A stretch of DNA of 64,000 nucleotides from Paludibacter sp. (GTDB lineage Bacteria; Bacteroidota; Bacteroidia; Bacteroidales; Paludibacteraceae), in contig JAQTTH010000001.1 of assembly GCA_028710895.1 (NCBI GenBank), positions 281,876-345,875 of the forward strand, in the 5' to 3' direction. The number at the start of each line of letters is the position of its first letter. Positions within the stretch are counted from its first letter, which is position 1. The position numbers and the translations under genes were made by a program. Positions 37,223-46,249 of the stretch are shown one piece after another. The notes below the pieces were generated by a model. That model was not told the origin of the DNA. It made no database searches and saw only the letters and a program-made list of their open reading frames with translations.

Positions 37223-39118
37223 TTATTTCTTGATTACTTTCCTTTGATAGTTTACTCCATTATTTGATAGTCTAACAATATACATTCCAACAGGATAAGA
37301 ACTCAAATCTAAGCTTATCTTTTTCCCAATATTCTCATATGTGGAAACGTAAATTGACATACCAAGATGATTAAAAATCTCAATCTTACATTTATCTCCT
37401 AAGGTTTCAATTTCTGATATTTCAAATTTGCCTGTTGTTGGATTTGGGTAAATCTTTATTTTGCCGGAAGCAGAAACGTCTTCAACATCTGCCGAAGTAT
37501 GTGAAACACAAACTCGAAAACCACCATTACCAATTGTAGGTTGAGAAGCACCAAAATCATAAATTCTAATCCAGTATGTTTGACCAACAATAAGACCAGA
37601 AACTGTTAGATTCACATTCCCATACCCAGTAGGATCTAAACAACCTATTTCATTAAGATCATAACAACTTGTACCTTTATAAACAACGACAACTGCGTCT
37701 AATCCAGAGCTTGTTGGAACATTTGGTTCAACAGCGATTATTGCCGAGGTTGTTGCTGCAATAAATTTATAGAATACGCCGTATTGAGTTGAACTCTTTC
37801 CATTACATGATGGTAAATTAGGAAATCCATCATCAGTGGCATAATCAATAGTCCCATAAGTATAACTGCAAGTGGTATTATCAGTTAACAATATTGCATT
37901 TGCACAGTTATCATTAGACGGTGGAGTGCCACTCACAGAACTACCTACTATTTTATTTTTTGTGTCTGTCCTTATAGTTGATAATAGGTTGTAGAGATTA
38001 TTCCCGGGGCAAGTATCAGTTGGTTTAACATCTCTATGCCCACATATTCTCGGCAAATATAATGTACTTGTTCCATCTTGACTTAGAATATTTGCACTGG
38101 AAGTTGGGTCATAACCACGCCAATTAAACCACCAAGCTAACAATTCTTCTAATTTCGATAATTGTATAGAGGTTGAGGTTGTTACATCTGTGTTTCCTAA
38201 AAAACAAATGCCTATAGATTTACTATTCGAAGATTCTGCATGAGCACCTTGTATATCCTGAGATTGATTATCTGGGTTATACCTCCCTTGAAAAATATTC
38301 CCAAACTTATCAATAAGATAATTATATGCAATATCATCCCAACCTTTAGTATTTACATGATAATCCCAATAACTTCTAACAACCGCATAACCATCTGAAT
38401 ATGTATCTGGACTTGCACCATGATGCATAATTACATGGGTTGGAGTAATCACTTTAGGTGTGAATGTTGGATTATTACATGCACCTATACCATTACACCA
38501 ATCAGACCTAGGTATAATTACAGGTTGGGGACAACCATGTATTTCTGTTGGTGATTTAAATCTTAAAGTATCATTTGATAATGCGTATTTGTTATTTTTC
38601 TTTGAACTTTCATTTAACATGTTCACAAAATCAATTCTTACATATTTAATTTTCTCTCCATTAGGAGCATACAACATAATTTCACAATTATCATGCAATA
38701 TAGAATCATCAATAAAAATAATATCACTCCAATAAAGATTAGTAGGAGTCTCTGCGGGAGATGTTATACCTGAATTATCCTTCCAATCAGTCCATTGATT
38801 ATCATTTAATTTTGTTCTATATTTCAGAATAAAATCTTTGGGGTTTATGTTCTTATTATCACACAACCAACCTACCCCAAAAAAAGAAAATGATATTGGC
38901 ACTTTAATCCTAAAAGAATAAAATCCCTCATTATTCGATTGAAGATTATTATCCCAAATAATAATGGCAGAAGGTGTATTTCTTTTTACACTATCATTAA
39001 TTATTTGTGATGGTATAGGATTAATATCATTTTCGTTATATCGAAACTTCTCGAATCTTTGAGCATTTGCAAAGATAGAAAAAGAAAAAATTAAAATTAA
39101 AATGATTTTTGTTTTCAT
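37223..39118 (-). CDS. T9SS-exported N-acetylmuramoyl-L-alanine amidase (PGRP/Amidase_2)
   Basis: 631 residues from the ATG that opens a clean signal peptide (KTKIILILIFSFSIFANAQ); the 27-codon longer frame overlaps the preceding gene and is rejected. Amidase core about 190-400: H232 in VIMHHGAS, H361 in CGHRDV and C370 in TDTCPG are the expected zinc ligands. A second domain (about 405-545) resembles a secreted beta-sandwich with Cys pairs. The last 75 residues are a T9SS sorting domain (KIYPNPTTGKFEISE). Cleaves peptidoglycan outside the cell, possibly of competitors or for turnover (inferred). Follows the propeller-LRR gene by 46 bp. Confidence 0.93.
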   Translation of the reverse strand: MKTKIILILIFSFSIFANAQRFEKFRYNENDINPIPSQIINDSVKRNTPSAIIIWDNNLQSNNEGFYSFRIKVPISFSFFGVGWLCDNKNINPKDFILKYRTKLNDNQWTDWKDNSGITSPAETPTNLYWSDIIFIDDSILHDNCEIMLYAPNGEKIKYVRIDFVNMLNESSKKNNKYALSNDTLRFKSPTEIHGCPQPVIIPRSDWCNGIGACNNPTFTPKVITPTHVIMHHGASPDTYSDGYAVVRSYWDYHVNTKGWDDIAYNYLIDKFGNIFQGRYNPDNQSQDIQGAHAESSNSKSIGICFLGNTDVTTSTSIQLSKLEELLAWWFNWRGYDPTSSANILSQDGTSTLYLPRICGHRDVKPTDTCPGNNLYNLLSTIRTDTKNKIVGSSVSGTPPSNDNCANAILLTDNTTCSYTYGTIDYATDDGFPNLPSCNGKSSTQYGVFYKFIAATTSAIIAVEPNVPTSSGLDAVVVVYKGTSCYDLNEIGCLDPTGYGNVNLTVSGLIVGQTYWIRIYDFGASQPTIGNGGFRVCVSHTSADVEDVSASGKIKIYPNPTTGKFEISEIETLGDKCKIEIFNHLGMSIYVSTYENIGKKISLDLSSYPVGMYIVRLSNNGVNYQRKVIKK

Positions 39119-39164
39119 GGCTATCAATATTTTAATTATTTTTTGATTTCTAAGTATAATATGA

Positions 39165-42100
39165 TTACAACTTCTGAACTTTACGTACCACAGAACCATT
39201 CAATGTCTTTAAATGAACAATATACAAACCTTGTGGTAAGTTACTAATATCTATTGACTCATTATTATTAATTCCTTTTGTCAATAACAGATTACCAGAA
39301 ACATCGTACAACTTGAATGTAGCTATGCCTTCTATGCCTTCAATACGAAAATCATCTGTTACAGGGTTTGGATAAACAATTAATCCATTTGTTTCAGGGA
39401 CTTCTGAGACTGCATTCACTTTAGTATGAACTTCTAATGTTATCGGATTACTTGTTAAGGTAAGTTCAGTTGCTTTTGTATTGGTAATTTGACAAGTGTA
39501 TTTTCCTGCATCTTTAGAAGCTACATACGGAATTACATACTCAGTTGCAGTGGCACCTGTAATACTTACACCATTGTAACACCACTGATAAATATTGTTA
39601 TTACCATTTGTAGTGACTGAGATTTTGAATTCTTCACCTAAATTTCTATTCATTGTATCTAACTTACCAATTGAAGCTTGAGGAGAGTATCTAAAAATAC
39701 TTTGTGGAACACCTATATTAGGTTCGATATCTCCAAAGTTCAACATGTTGTTATCAATTAATAAATTTTTAAGACTTACCAAAGATGATAAATCAGGTAA
39801 ACCAGATATTTTGTTATAGCTAAGATTCAATGTTTGCAAATTCTTTAATGCAGACCAACTATCAGGTAAAATTCCAGTAAGTAGATTATCGTTTAAAGTT
39901 AAATACATTAGCTTAGCTAAGCTTGACCAGCTCGAAGGAAGAGTTCCTGATAATTTATTACCAGAAAGATATAAAACCTGTAAATTAGCTAAAGAAGACC
40001 AACTCGAAGGAAGTGTACCTGATAATTGATTGTAATAACTAAAATCCAACGTTTTCAAATTTTTTAAAGATGACCAGCTATCAGGCAGAGATCCTGTAAG
40101 ATTATTATATCCAAGATACAATTCCGTTAGATTTGCTAAAGAGGACCAACTCGAAGGTAAAGTTCCTGTAAGTTGATTATTCGGTGCAGCTAAAATCCTT
40201 AGGTTGACCAAAGTTGACCAATCTGAAGGTAGTGTCCCTGATAATTGATTACTATAAAGATATAAATACTGCAAATTCACTAAAGAAGACCAACTTGAAG
40301 GAAGTGTACCTGTGAATTGATTTCCGGTAAGATCTATTGTTTGTAGATTTACTAAAGCAGACCAATTTTCAGGAAGCAAACCAGATAATTTATTTCTAGC
40401 GAAACTCAACTCACTGATTTCAGTTAGATTTGAGAGCTCAATCGGAATAGACCCAACTAAACCTGCAGAAGGAGTAGAGGTACTTCCCATATTCAATTTA
40501 ACTACTCTTCCCTCTTCAAAAGTGATACCCTCCCACGTTTCGAGTGGACCGGTTAACCAATTTGCTTTTTTAGTCCAATTTGTACCATTTGTTGAATTAT
40601 ATAATGCTACAAGTGCCAAAGAATCTTGTTGAATTAATTTTTGATCGTAATTCATTTCGCTTAATGGACGCTTCCATACACCTTCATAGGGAGTTCCAGC
40701 AAAAATATTACCTCCATAAATTCCAAGGGAACCAATCCCTTTCGTTCTGGTTAACCCTTTATCTACTTTATACCAACTTGCTCCGTTATTTCGAGAGCGG
40801 AAAACATTACTTCTGGCAGAAGCATTACTAGCAAAAATATCAGTGCCAGACACTGTTAATGAACCTATTCCATATCCACTCAATCCTACAGAAATCCAAT
40901 TTTGTCCATTATCTGTTGAACGGAATACTCCATTTTGACCTGTACCTGCAAAAATATTATTTCCACAAACAGCTAAAGCCAAAATTTGTTTATCTATAAG
41001 TCCGATATTTACTTCGGACCAATTTTGACCATAATCCATTGACCGAAATATACCCCCACCGTATGTTCCAGCAAAAATATTGTTTCCACTGATAACTAAA
41101 GATGAAATTTTGTTATTTGTCAAACCATTATTTATTGCCGACCAAGTTTGCCCATTGTTTGTTGAGAGAAACAAACCACCATTGCCAGTCTCCGAATTAT
41201 AGGTTCCAACAAAAATATTATTTCCAGTTATTGCTAGCGCTGAAATCCAACGATAAATTAGCCCAATTCCATTATTTACAGGCGTCCAAGTTTGACCATT
41301 ATTAGTTGAAAGAAATATCCCTCCACCATTTGTTCCAGCAAAAATATTATTCCCACTTACTGCCAAATCAGTAACTTTGACATTTGTCAAGCCAGCATTC
41401 ATAATTGACCAATTTTCACCATTGTCAGTCGATAATGATACTCCCCCACTGCCTCCAACAAAGATATTATTACCACTAAAGGCAAATGACCCAACACCTC
41501 CATTTTTTATTCCGATGTTTACAGCAGACCAACTTTGACCATCGTTAGCAGAAGAAAAGATACCCCCACCATTTGTGCCTGCAAAGATATTGCTTCCTGA
41601 AATATATAAAGATTCAATATCATTTGCTAATCCCGAACTTACTCTCGTCCAACTTTCTCCGTTATTTGTTGATACAAACACACCACCATCAGATACCATA
41701 CCTGTAAAAAAATTAAACATCGAATAGGTTCCAGCAAAAATTTTATTCCCACTACTAACCAGAGACTTAACTCCTTTAGCAGTAAAACCTGTATTCACTG
41801 GAGACCAGTTTTGACCATTATCAGTCGAACGGAATACTCCACTTCCCCATGTTCCGGCAAAGATACTGGTTCCACAGACAGTTAACGAACTAACATTTAA
41901 ATCGGTCAATCCATTATTCACTAAAGACCAATTTTGTCCATTATTTGTTGAGACAAATATCCCTACACCATAGCTCGCTGCAAAAATACTATTTCCAGAA
42001 ACTGCTAAAAAGCCAATATTTTTTGTAGTTAGTCCTGCATTTGCTTCTGACCAATTTTGTCCATTATCAGATGAGATATAAACTCCGCCATCACCAGCTG

Positions 42101-42689: not shown

Positions 42690-43439
42690 TTAACCGGCAA
42701 CGCTTGTATCAGTTTTACCAGTATCTTTTTTCTTGTTTTCTGCACGGGTATCGGTAGCTCTCAGGGTACTGAGCGACGAAACGATAAGTGCGTTTAGTTC
42801 GTTGGTAAGTGCAGTGAGGTCAGCGCTTGGGGCAGCAATTTGTTGCAGTCCTACAAACTGGAACAAAGCACGCAGAGCAACCACCAATTCGGGGCGGGTT
42901 TCCACCACGGTAGGTTCGTTGGTAGCCGCGGCTACTTCTACAAATTGTTTAGCGGTGGCTTCAAAATCTTTCTGAGAATCGTCTACTTCGTCCAATAATT
43001 CACCGGCAGCTATCAAAGCCAGTTCGGCAGGATATTTAGTGCGTATTTCGGAAATGATGTTGTTTAATGCACCCGATTTAGCTTTGTAGCCCAAATGCTG
43101 AGCACTCCATCCGTGTTTCCGTATAACGTTTAACAAGGTATTAGCCGCATCGCTCCATCCTTCTTTACGGCGGGTAGATGCCGATTCGCAATACGAACGA
43201 AAGGCCATAAAAGCATCGTTACACATATCCGACTTAGCTGCCTGCAGCTTGGTAACCGGATTTTTCGATTCACGCTCCAATGCGCTTTGGAACGCATCGC
43301 ATTTTACACTGGCGTTATCGAGATAAGGAACAACAGATGGGAGTTGTAATCTCTTAGCATCAACCGTAGCGATGGCTCTACTCGCAAAAGTAAACAATTC
43401 AGCACCCGGAAACAACAAATAATTCACACTTGTAATCAT
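42690..43439 (-). CDS. DUF6261-family protein, unknown function
   Basis: 249 residues, alanine-rich and almost wholly helical, without signal peptide or membrane helix. N-terminal SVNYLLFPGAELFTFASRAIA, then DAFQSALERESKNPVTKLQAAKSD (read in parts) and a Lys/Asp-rich tail (ENKKKDTGKTDTSVAG). Resembles the DUF6261 proteins found as several copies in some Bacteroidales; assignment is recalled and function unknown. More GC-rich than its surroundings, which suggests either strong expression or transfer. Preceded by the 41-bp palindrome array. Confidence 0.82.
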   Translation of the reverse strand: MITSVNYLLFPGAELFTFASRAIATVDAKRLQLPSVVPYLDNASVKCDAFQSALERESKNPVTKLQAAKSDMCNDAFMAFRSYCESASTRRKEGWSDAANTLLNVIRKHGWSAQHLGYKAKSGALNNIISEIRTKYPAELALIAAGELLDEVDDSQKDFEATAKQFVEVAAATNEPTVVETRPELVVALRALFQFVGLQQIAAPSADLTALTNELNALIVSSLSTLRATDTRAENKKKDTGKTDTSVAG

Positions 43440-44197
43440 ACATTTTTCTGTTTAAAAATTAATATTGAGGTTATTTGTATCAAGCTTAGTTGCCTGATAA
43501 TATGTGTTTTATTATCAATAATAAATTCAAAAAGTATCGTAAATAGTGTTTATTTCCTGTCTGCGCTCCTGCAGATAAGAATTATACTGTATAATCTCTA
43601 TCTGCACAGCGGCAGATCAATATTATTCCACAAAATTCGGATCTGCACAGCCGCAAATCGATATTATTCCATAAAATCCGTATCTGCGCGGCGGCAGGTT
43701 ATTATTTTTCGGTTGAATAGTTGTCTGCACAGCAGCAGATGAGTATTTTATCGTAAAATAAGCCTCTGCACCTCCGCAGGTTTAAATTTTATTGTTTATT
43801 TTTTCTCCAGGTTTTTTCTACGCTTTGGAATTTTACATCAGCGAATGTAATTGCGATAGTTTGATTAATTCTATCCATAAAACGACGAATTTGGAAGTAA
43901 AACAAACAAAACAGAATACAAAATGAAATAAAAACCCGAATAAATGGGAGTTTCAAATCATAATTTAACGACCGTAAATATATGAAAGTTTTTTTGATAA
44001 AAACACACATTCAGAAAATATTTTTTGAGGTTTTTTATTGTTTCTTGTGAAACCCAGCAAATACGGGGGTTTTGAAGATTTTTGATAACAGAAAAAGCGT
44101 TTAACTGCTAACTGTTCTAAATCCGAATTTAAAATAGAGTCCTTGTAAACATAATGAGGTTTCGCAATTTATACATCGCGAAACCCAATCATTTGAC
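43440..44197. other. 800-bp intergenic region with array, otherwise no gene seen
   Basis: From the DUF6261 start outward: a promoter-like TACTTTTTG (minus strand, 43528-43536), the 41-bp palindrome array (43559-43781), then about 400 bp of AT-rich sequence. A 73-codon minus-strand frame (43789-44010) there has no recognisable domain, and I do not call it a gene. Confidence 0.6.
43559..43781. repeat. Six 18-bp palindromes at an exact 41-bp period
   Basis: Units start at 43559, 43600, 43641, 43682, 43723 and 43764. Each is a 6-bp inverted repeat (consensus ATCTGC, 6 nt, GCAGAT) with a GC-rich centre, separated by 23-bp AT-rich spacers. Spacers 2 and 3 agree at 19 of 23 positions; others keep a TATTATT-like core. 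It therefore arose by tandem duplication of a 41-bp unit whose palindrome has been kept while the spacer diverged. Confidence 0.95.
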
Positions 44198-44232
44198 AAA
44201 AAAAACAGTGAACCCTTTTGAGGCTCACTGTT
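44198..44232 (-). terminator. Terminator of the alpha-galactosidase gene
   Basis: 11-bp stem with one mismatch (44204-44214 with 44222-44232), 7-nt loop, then eight T on the minus strand. Confidence 0.85.
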
Positions 44233-44260
44233 AGTTCAAGAAATTCGATACGTATGTGAT

Positions 44261-46249
44261 TTATCTGACCGGACTGATTCTGACCAAAACAACTCCGTGA
44301 AGTGGAACAGCCGTTTCGAATGCCTGATCCTGAATGGCTATGTTTTTTTGTGACCAAACATTGCGTATCTGTTGTTTCCCACTGATATTTAATTCGGACC
44401 AGTTGATTTTTATACCAGTTGAAACGCTTTCTTTTTGTGCCCAATTGAATAAATCTGCAACGTTTGTGTTGTCTCCCCGGTTGAATAATCCCACGGCTTT
44501 CGAACCATCTTCAAGTTCTTTCACCCATACTTCTTTTCCATTCTGTTTCGAAACACATACAGCCTGTTTCCCCAAAGGATCCTGATTGATATCAAGCACT
44601 TCATCGTTTGTAAGTAAGCTCAGTGTGAATTCGTCCATCTGGCTCATATCGCCTCCGATAAGCAATGGCGAAGCAAGCAATGCCCACAGGCTGATGTGTG
44701 TATATTGTTCATCGGGCGTTAAGCGGGTGGCATGAAGCGACGGCCCCCAACCCACTTTTCCTACAACCAACATATCGGGGTCGTTCCAGCTACCGGGTCT
44801 GGCGTATTGGGTATTCTGTGTTTGGGAGAATCCAATGTCGGACATGCTTTGCCAGGTGTCCGTAATGTCGCCGGTAGTGCGCCAGAGTTGTCCGGTTGTG
44901 CTTCCCCATTCCCATACATTATCCATACCGTATTGGCAAAGGCTGTGTACGATATCGCGGTTTTGCGCTGCAAGGGCATTTTTCATTGTTGTGTATGGTT
45001 TCACATATTCAGCATGCGATTTGTCTGTTTTGTCAAACTCTTCGCCATACGAGCACCAGTCATATTTCAGGTAGTCGATGCCCCATTTGGCATACATGTC
45101 AGCATCCTGTTGTTCGTGATTCAGACTTCCCAGATAACCGCCGCAAGTCAATCGACCCGGCGAAGAATAGATACCTATTTTTAATCCTTTGGCATGTACA
45201 TAATCGCACAATTGCTTCATGTCGGGGAATTTATCGTTGCACACAATGTCGCCATTGGCAGCGCGCTCAGGAGCTTCCCAACCATCATCGATGTTCATAT
45301 ATGTCCAGCCATGATTGATTAAACCACTCGACACCATCGCGTCGGCCGAAGCTTTTACCTTTTCGGCACTAACCGACAATCCCCAACAATTCCAACTGTT
45401 CCATCCCATTGGCGGTGTTAGTGCAAGTTTATTTTTACCGATCACTATTTTCATAGCGCGTGTAGCTGTTCCCACTTCGTTACGGGCAGTTACTTTCACT
45501 ATGTACTCACCCTCCTGATCCGCTTTTCCCGAAATTATTCCGGTTTCTTTATCCAGTGTCAATCCTTCAGGGAGGCCTTCGGCACTGAAAGTTATTGGGC
45601 TATTGCCTGTAGCTGCAATGTGATAAAGAAATGGTTTGCCGGGAGTTGCACCGGTAATACGGGCTCCGTTAATGCGAGGCGACACAGAAGGTTTGGGAGT
45701 AAGAATATAAGGCTTTTGCGAAGCAATGCCCGCAATTGTTGGTTTATTCTTTGCGTATGCAATCCGCGCATTAAGCCAGTCGGCATGGTCGAAGCTAATC
45801 CCATCGTTGGCATCGGTCACCAACAGTGCAAGTTGCTGTACGCCTTTGAGGTTTACGTTGATTTCTTTGGCAGCATCTCCTTTTTTCATAACGCCACTGC
45901 GAAACACCACTTTTCGGTCGCACAAAACATAAAACTCCATGCTGGCAGCTGCCGATTTCACTTCGTCGTCAACACCTACTAATGCCGAAAATTTACTGGC
46001 TGTCCCATTCAGGTTCAGAAGCACTTTGCTAATGGCGTGTGTGCCAATACCCCTTTCGTATTTTACACCACCAACTGTAAGGGGATTACTGTCGATACTT
46101 TTGTTGGCTTGACTTATACTCCAACCTGTTTCAATTTTGTTAGCTCCCATTTCGTCGAGCCACAGCTCCGAAACGGTTGTCGACTTACTCTTCTGACCCA
46201 TTGCAGTCATACACAACAGGCAGAAAGATAGAATTAGTGTTTTTCTCAT
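44261..46249 (-). CDS. GH27 alpha-galactosidase with N-terminal NPCBM domain
   Basis: 662 residues, signal peptide about 1-18. NPCBM carbohydrate-binding domain about 25-170 (SKSTTVSELWLDEM, YERGIGTHAISKV). A putative Ig domain follows (about 190-275, GLPEGLTLDKETGIISG). GH27 barrel about 283-560: LTPPMGWNSWNCWG, YMNIDDGWE, LKYDWCSYG with nucleophile D397, and SWNDPDMLVVG (W488 onward) with the acid/base. A C-terminal beta domain ends the protein. Removes terminal alpha-1,6-galactose from plant galactosides in the periplasm or outside. Own terminator; no sugar-operon partner next to it. Confidence 0.96.
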   Translation of the reverse strand: MRKTLILSFCLLCMTAMGQKSKSTTVSELWLDEMGANKIETGWSISQANKSIDSNPLTVGGVKYERGIGTHAISKVLLNLNGTASKFSALVGVDDEVKSAAASMEFYVLCDRKVVFRSGVMKKGDAAKEINVNLKGVQQLALLVTDANDGISFDHADWLNARIAYAKNKPTIAGIASQKPYILTPKPSVSPRINGARITGATPGKPFLYHIAATGNSPITFSAEGLPEGLTLDKETGIISGKADQEGEYIVKVTARNEVGTATRAMKIVIGKNKLALTPPMGWNSWNCWGLSVSAEKVKASADAMVSSGLINHGWTYMNIDDGWEAPERAANGDIVCNDKFPDMKQLCDYVHAKGLKIGIYSSPGRLTCGGYLGSLNHEQQDADMYAKWGIDYLKYDWCSYGEEFDKTDKSHAEYVKPYTTMKNALAAQNRDIVHSLCQYGMDNVWEWGSTTGQLWRTTGDITDTWQSMSDIGFSQTQNTQYARPGSWNDPDMLVVGKVGWGPSLHATRLTPDEQYTHISLWALLASPLLIGGDMSQMDEFTLSLLTNDEVLDINQDPLGKQAVCVSKQNGKEVWVKELEDGSKAVGLFNRGDNTNVADLFNWAQKESVSTGIKINWSELNISGKQQIRNVWSQKNIAIQDQAFETAVPLHGVVLVRISPVR

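Follow-up and report, generated by a model that had tools for sequence, protein, structure and literature searches.

A DUF6261 gene of Paludibacter sp. is preceded by a tandem array of palindromes that is phased to the DNA helix, and arrays with the same step accompany most of the DUF6261 genes that we read in related genomes. The arrays are symmetric and linked to the gene, change in concert within a lineage, move together with the gene and occur elsewhere as gene-free sister copies. Gene-linked private arrays with copies elsewhere point to what may be an undescribed kind of mobile DNA element. From sequence, we infer that a protein binds the array, that DUF6261 could be the binder and that their complex may serve the element itself.

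A helically phased array of dyads beside a DUF6261 gene

We analysed a 64,000-nucleotide stretch of contig JAQTTH010000001.1 (the window). Its DUF6261 gene lies on the minus strand and the array is therefore upstream of the gene's start at 43439 (Table 1). The original prediction of an upstream array was right as to position, with the qualification that the array also lies downstream of an alpha-galactosidase gene (44261-46249). Lag scoring gave the array a score of 43.4, and lag-41 identity 5' of the DUF6261 gene was 0.72 versus a maximum of 0.47 in 40 shuffles. The six palindromes follow one another at exactly 41 bp, and their ATCTGC...GCAGAT-type arms, with single changes, pair at 5, 6, 5, 5, 5 and 4 of 6 positions, confirming what had been noted by eye. 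None of 60 trials with column-permuted units reached the palindrome score. Tandem Repeats Finder recovered just 2.6 copies (43593-43697) and a strict-symmetry scan overlooked many arrays; lag scoring was used for detection instead.

The AT-rich spacers had been described as diverged, with selection apparently acting on the palindromes and their spacing. This part of the prediction needs qualifying, as the spacers are not free: they resemble the spacers of orthologues and hold a second dyad (B), which pairs at 5-7 of 9 positions and whose seven centres fall roughly halfway from one GC-rich dyad (A) to the next. Pairing at this second centre was 0.69 versus 0.26 in permuted units. With the weaker dyad included, a centre of symmetry recurs every ~20.5 bp, which is roughly two turns of B-DNA.

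The motif TCTGCN6GCAGA occurs without mismatches four times in the window's genome, three of them inside the array. Used whole, the array had no second match in its own genome, and as a DNA query against 40 genomes it matched one, its own. A promoter-like string proposed for the gene, TACTTTTTG, does exist; it is not kept in three orthologues, leaving promoter function unsupported. Rfam assigned no family to 43400-44300, and we read three sub-threshold microRNA matches as chance. Translated repeats were rejected because 41 is not a multiple of three, and a CRISPR array was ruled out: neighbouring spacers are 87% alike and the repeats themselves vary. Elsewhere in the window, positions 48-2073 hold a long coding-size tandem repeat with periods of 156 and 468 bp and ~13 copies of the shorter unit.

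Table 1 Features of the DUF6261 locus in the window
Feature	Position	Strand	Evidence
DUF6261 gene, 249 aa	42690..43439	-	PF19775, E 1.4e-17
Promoter-like string TACTTTTTG	43528..43536	-	Present; without conservation in three orthologues
Tandem array, period 41, 6.2 units	43543..43795		Lag-41 score, shuffles
Dyad A unit 1, GTCTGCGCTCCTGCAGAT	43559..43576		Arm pairs 5/6
Dyad A unit 2, ATCTGCACAGCGGCAGAT	43600..43617		Arm pairs 6/6
Dyad A unit 3, ATCTGCACAGCCGCAAAT	43641..43658		Arm pairs 5/6
Dyad A unit 4, ATCTGCGCGGCGGCAGGT	43682..43699		Arm pairs 5/6
Dyad A unit 5, GTCTGCACAGCAGCAGAT	43723..43740		Arm pairs 5/6
Dyad A unit 6, CTCTGCACCTCCGCAGGT	43764..43781		Arm pairs 4/6
Five AT-rich spacers, each with dyad B	43577..43763		5-7/9 pairs each
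Dyad B centres in spacers	near 43588, 43628, 43669, 43711, 43752		Pairing

Pfam found DUF6261 as the sole match in the window protein, with no transposase, Rep or Par family. No NCBIfam model and no PADLOC model (at E 0.1) matched it, a profile search against solved structures returned nothing credible (best E 0.17), and viral contigs, plasmids and phages yielded no relatives. Most DUF6261 proteins are acidic (median pI 6.1, n = 70; 17 above 8; window protein 5.8), and Pfam and NCBIfam revealed no DNA-binding domain in them. Among the papers searched, the term DUF6261 occurs in one, PMC10376253.

Arrays at other DUF6261 loci

The window's genome holds 12 copies of PF19775, and a first search of relatives gave 77 matches in 18 of 40 genomes. 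We read 71 of these 77, leaving out six that lacked a locus. The best period between 30 and 60 was 41 or 42 at 56 of the 64 loci with at least 200 bp upstream (seven of the 71 had less and were left out), although three of the 56 did not rise above their own shuffles. With an array defined by a lag score limit of 15, 55 of 71 loci carry one, at a period of 41 (31 loci), 42 (23) or 43 (1). Fifty arrays are upstream of the gene (31 at 41, 18 at 42, one at 43), where the median distance to the ATG is 90 bp and three arrays are more than 600 bp away; the five downstream arrays all have period 42. Six of the 16 array-less loci are at contig edges and ten are not. As a control, of 150 stretches of 3.3 kb picked at random in two of the genomes, 4 gave an array; they were scored over a slightly different period range and drawn from a pool that itself includes linked arrays. 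Other DUF6261 loci had been named as the place to look for further arrays, and there the step is indeed kept while copy number changes. Across the phylum, PF19775 scored above cut-off in 11 of 395 genomes; outside the genus, the best period (25-70) was 41 or 42 at 17 of 20 loci, 12 of the 20 having a score of at least 15.

Palindromes are mostly locus-specific (TTCCCAATATTGGGAA, TGCCCAAGCTGGGCA, TCTATAATTTATAGA, TCCGAACTTCGGA and others). Among the 47 arrays left after excluding those with scores under 20, 32 are palindromic beyond permutation (at most 3 of 60 beat the score) and 15 are not significantly so; pairing at the second centre across all 47 was 0.385 versus 0.254 in permuted units. 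Array pairs sharing an 11-mer numbered 10 versus 5.6 after shuffling in one genome (G016), an excess due to sister pairs, and 15 versus 16.8 in another (G000).

Five loci (L074, L077, L019, L030 and L083) form a DUF6261 subgroup in which a small ORF precedes the gene and the array lies downstream of it. At L019, an ORF past the array resembles, by eye, the start of Cas9.

Gene and array travel together

Three orthologues of the window protein (L087, L088 and L089; 76-77% identity) keep the 41-bp step with differing copy number. Their palindromes have shifted in concert, from TCTGC..GCAGA to TCTGG..ACAGA, and the gene-proximal unit of L089 retains the older type. Genes neighbouring the orthologues match none of the window's, with one exception at L088, where an ORF matches the amidase gene at 37223-39199 over 144 residues (37%) in a T9SS-associated domain region. 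Conversely, in seven relatives the alpha-galactosidase genes that resemble the window's have neither a DUF6261 gene nor an array beside them, one of these loci being cut at a contig end. Since the orthologues keep the step amid other genes, gene and array travel together.

Two 98%-identical paralogues of the window's genome (C10 and C15) share a block that starts at a hairpin preceding the array and ends just past the stop codon. Within it the arrays are far less alike than the gene or the promoter region, at 35-52 identities of 60 in the array versus 51-60 of 60 in the flanking gene. Palindromes differ clearly in a protein pair that is 98% identical. Unit similarity was 0.63 for the 12 pairs with at least 70% protein identity, ~0.41 below 50% identity and 0.40 for the 1166 pairs lacking a BLAST hit. 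Similarity of the units tracks protein identity among close relatives only, a trend that plain descent could also yield.

All six amino-acid differences between the 98%-identical paralogues L049 and L050 of G000 fall at residues 172-192, and the palindromes of the two show concerted differences; this may reflect gene conversion. A hypervariable specificity region at these residues was considered and dropped, being absent in 56 other or overlapping pairs and 34 close homologues.

Sister arrays without the gene

We searched the window's genome for sisters of seven of its 12 DUF6261 arrays, representing six lineages. Four lineages have one, at C24:39026 (91%), C15:131276 (86%), C14:277973 (74%) and C22:446846 (72%), and neither the window lineage nor the C5 lineage has a sister in this genome. 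DUF6261-like sequence is absent at E 0.01 from three of the four sister loci; the fourth, L279, has weak matches with E values of 0.005 (22 residues) and 0.010 (115 residues). The perfect palindrome TCTATAAWTTATAGA occurs in this genome only in the linked array of C15 and its C14 sister. The C24 copy begins at the same point as two gene-linked copies and mixes both of their palindrome types. Of the four sisters, two are located 5' of genes and the other two where 3' ends converge. Beyond this genome, a gene-free TCTATAA-type array is flanked by the same gene pair in two species, G016 and G448.

G016 also has a pair of gene-free 41-bp arrays of one sequence family (L154:19184-19561 and L155:19838-20000), with 154 common 11-mers when both strands are counted. 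One of the two is 227 bp past a gene that looks by eye like a RAYT-like transposase; RAYT-like genes, again by eye, were seen near two array loci only.

A wider class of arrays with 21-bp steps

Proteins of 207 aa form a second family with linked arrays, which have a period of 41-43 bp and occur at 21 of 30 loci. By our own reading these proteins have a helical front and a fibronectin-III-like rear, with weak Pfam matches or none. In a third family, of ~223 aa, each of the 7 loci carries an array with a step of 21, 42 or 63 bp; three of these loci are in another family of the phylum. In both fibronectin-III-type families the arrays are mostly upstream. Excluding 5 of 37 loci with scores below 20, the period is exactly 21, 42 or 63 in 30 of the 32 arrays with a score of at least 20. 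The proposed phasing to the DNA helix is thus borne out by steps of 41 and 42 at DUF6261 loci and of 21, 42 and 63 in two further families. Comparison of the three families with hhalign gave no support for common ancestry, on shallow alignments.

Members of the 207-aa family at L118:14026-14649 and L124:6921-7547 (G016), and their relatives L198-L227, carry 42- or 63-bp arrays often composed of 21-bp direct repeats. Upstream of 223-aa family members (L170:7357-8028 in G000; L228-L234) are exact 21-bp units in up to 17 copies.

In surveys of intergenic arrays, the period differed by no more than one base from a multiple of 21 in 18 of 22 arrays over 800 kb of G016 and in 4 of 4 over 400 kb of the window's genome. 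In 142 kb of G005, which has no DUF6261 match, four of the eight arrays step by 21 or 22 bp; this argues that DUF6261 is not required for the 21-bp step. In 200 kb of G041, from another family, 4 of 13 arrays were equally close to a multiple of 21, with no peak at 41-42. Similar arrays also adjoin ordinary genes. The arrays are a wider class, to which the DUF6261 tie is the strongest but not an exclusive one.

Comparison with known systems

Our literature search found no description of such arrays, most subscription papers being outside its reach. The iterons of plasmid replication and partition are phased repeats of ~21 bp beside the gene for their binding protein. Arrays here share this phased ~21-bp design and the link to a gene, but they are mostly paired dyads at 41/42 bp, the window protein has no Rep or Par match and none in a plasmid collection, and its gene is on a chromosomal contig of 519,682 bp.

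REP/RAYT systems (REPtrons) likewise combine intergenic palindromic repeats that are gene-linked or gene-free and possibly mobilized in trans, according to PMC3733652. In contrast, DUF6261 matches no transposase, and the window protein lacks an HUH tyrosine transposase match; copies are few in every array lineage, the sequence is private to the lineage, and the tandem step is exactly 41/42 bp. Whereas a REPtron repeats a single palindrome family many times in a genome, the window array occurs once in its own genome and arrays within a genome are mostly unrelated.

Type III toxin-antitoxin systems (ToxIN, CptIN and TenpIN) seem the nearest match at first sight: they also have tandem repeats of similar length before one gene, private to each locus and variable in copy number, and are marked by a rho-independent terminator between repeats and toxin gene, as set out in PMC5086642. 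Here, unlike in those systems, such terminators are almost lacking, wobble pairs show no bias, which bears indirectly on processing of repeat RNA by a toxin, and the steps are locked to the helix; the Pfam, NCBIfam and PADLOC results above reveal no toxin of the ToxN, CptN or TenpN kind.

The BrickBuilt MITE of Porphyromonas gingivalis resembles the arrays as a small mobile element with intergenic tandem repeats that expand and contract (PMC4596501). BrickBuilt differs in being one family of 23-nt repeats, against a step of 41 bp here, with a flanking leader and tail that end in terminal inverted repeats, and the part of that paper available to us describes no linked protein gene. The array is filed under none of these four systems.

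A candidate mobile element and its alternatives

We tentatively favour, at somewhat less than an even chance, a small mobile element with a phased dyad array read by DUF6261 or by a lineage-specific partner. The array would be a row of dyad-symmetric DNA sites about two helical turns apart, the alternation of GC-rich dyad A with the weaker AT-rich dyad B producing the 41-bp step; at this spacing, bound dimers would line up on one face of the helix. Array and DUF6261 gene travel as a unit of ~1.2 kb, and the array is also present on its own in the form of sister copies. A palindrome of its own in each lineage, drifting in concert, means that any reader of the array must be lineage-specific and speaks against one regulator for all arrays. 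By linkage, DUF6261 is the obvious candidate, and the most economical arrangement would have the linked protein act on the sister arrays as well as the one beside its gene. The complex might serve the upkeep or spread of the element and, where the array is upstream, self-regulation. Our confidence is held at this level by the acidity of DUF6261 proteins, the absence of a recognized DNA-binding domain and the descent-like trend in unit similarity. Also counting against this reading are the differing palindromes of a 98%-identical protein pair, the 15 arrays that are not significantly palindromic, the 16 loci that lack an array, the 21-bp arrays in G005 and beside other families and ordinary genes, the window and C5 arrays that have no sister, and the weak DUF6261 hits at L279.

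In one alternative, the array only sets expression of the adjacent gene, either as a multi-site operator or as phased curved DNA, and is bound by a nucleoid protein or by a regulator whose gene lies elsewhere. This would fit the helical phasing and the upstream position of 50 of the 55 arrays. It would also fit the mostly upstream arrays of the fibronectin-III-type families and a promoter-like TAnnTTTG between array and start at 12 of 49 loci (a count without a shuffle control). However, five arrays are downstream, two of four sisters lie between converging genes, and arrays within a genome have almost no sequence in common (10 versus 5.6; 15 versus 16.8), which argues against any single regulator that reads by sequence. 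The local regulatory element originally envisaged is hence an incomplete account: given the downstream arrays, the sisters between other genes and the joint relocation of gene and array, an operator at a single promoter is too narrow, and we regard it as unlikely. Cooperative binding by a protein, also proposed originally, may still apply.

We think it more improbable still that the arrays are neutral minisatellites, that is, functionless tandem duplications near genes whose step is set by the duplication mechanism. Concerted drift, similar arrays beside ordinary genes and, in one paralogue pair, arrays that diverge faster than the flanking gene would fit such duplications. Less readily explained are the strong link to DUF6261, a step that orthologues retain at 76-77% protein identity, palindromes beyond chance and the gene-free array whose position is shared by two species (G016 and G448).

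The original prediction also allowed for an RNA-hairpin ladder. If transcribed, the array could yield repeat RNA whose hairpins are bound by protein in the style of type III toxin-antitoxin systems, as tandem repeats of 41-42 bp before a gene, private to each locus, might suggest. Folding energy of the window array is beyond its shuffles (z -4.87), which is expected of any palindromic DNA. If an RNA hairpin were selected, one strand should be enriched in G.U. In the gene's sense, arm mismatches come to 74 G.T and 74 A.C, alongside 1472 paired cells; the cells are not independent because units of one array share ancestry. Upstream arrays alone have 65 G.T versus 61 A.C; G.T prevails in 17 arrays and A.C in 11, and 22 are tied. 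Terminator-like hairpins between array and gene number 2 of 47 versus 1 of 47 in shuffled sequence. With no strand bias in wobble pairs, almost no terminators, no Rfam family and, in other protein families, 21-bp quantized steps that fit B-DNA rather than RNA, the evidence favours a function as DNA and makes the ladder very unlikely.

Returning to the mobile element, a broader version of it is possible, though we hold it with less confidence than the element itself. The arrays would then mark a new class of Bacteroidota elements, in which a small-protein gene and a private dyad array at two-turn steps move jointly and shed gene-free sisters recognized in trans. Several protein families with no detectable common ancestry (DUF6261 and two fibronectin-III-like families) would share the one 21-bp design, each lineage with a fast-changing DNA specificity.

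For DUF6261 and two other uncharacterized families, a helically phased DNA array as companion would be a first lead. If the linked protein reads its own array, these loci would provide dozens of natural protein-site pairs with differing specificities, from which a new mode of DNA recognition could be learned and the joint change of protein and site traced. If it does not, the 21-bp quantization would still call for a mechanism that makes or keeps two-turn tandem DNA regardless of sequence.
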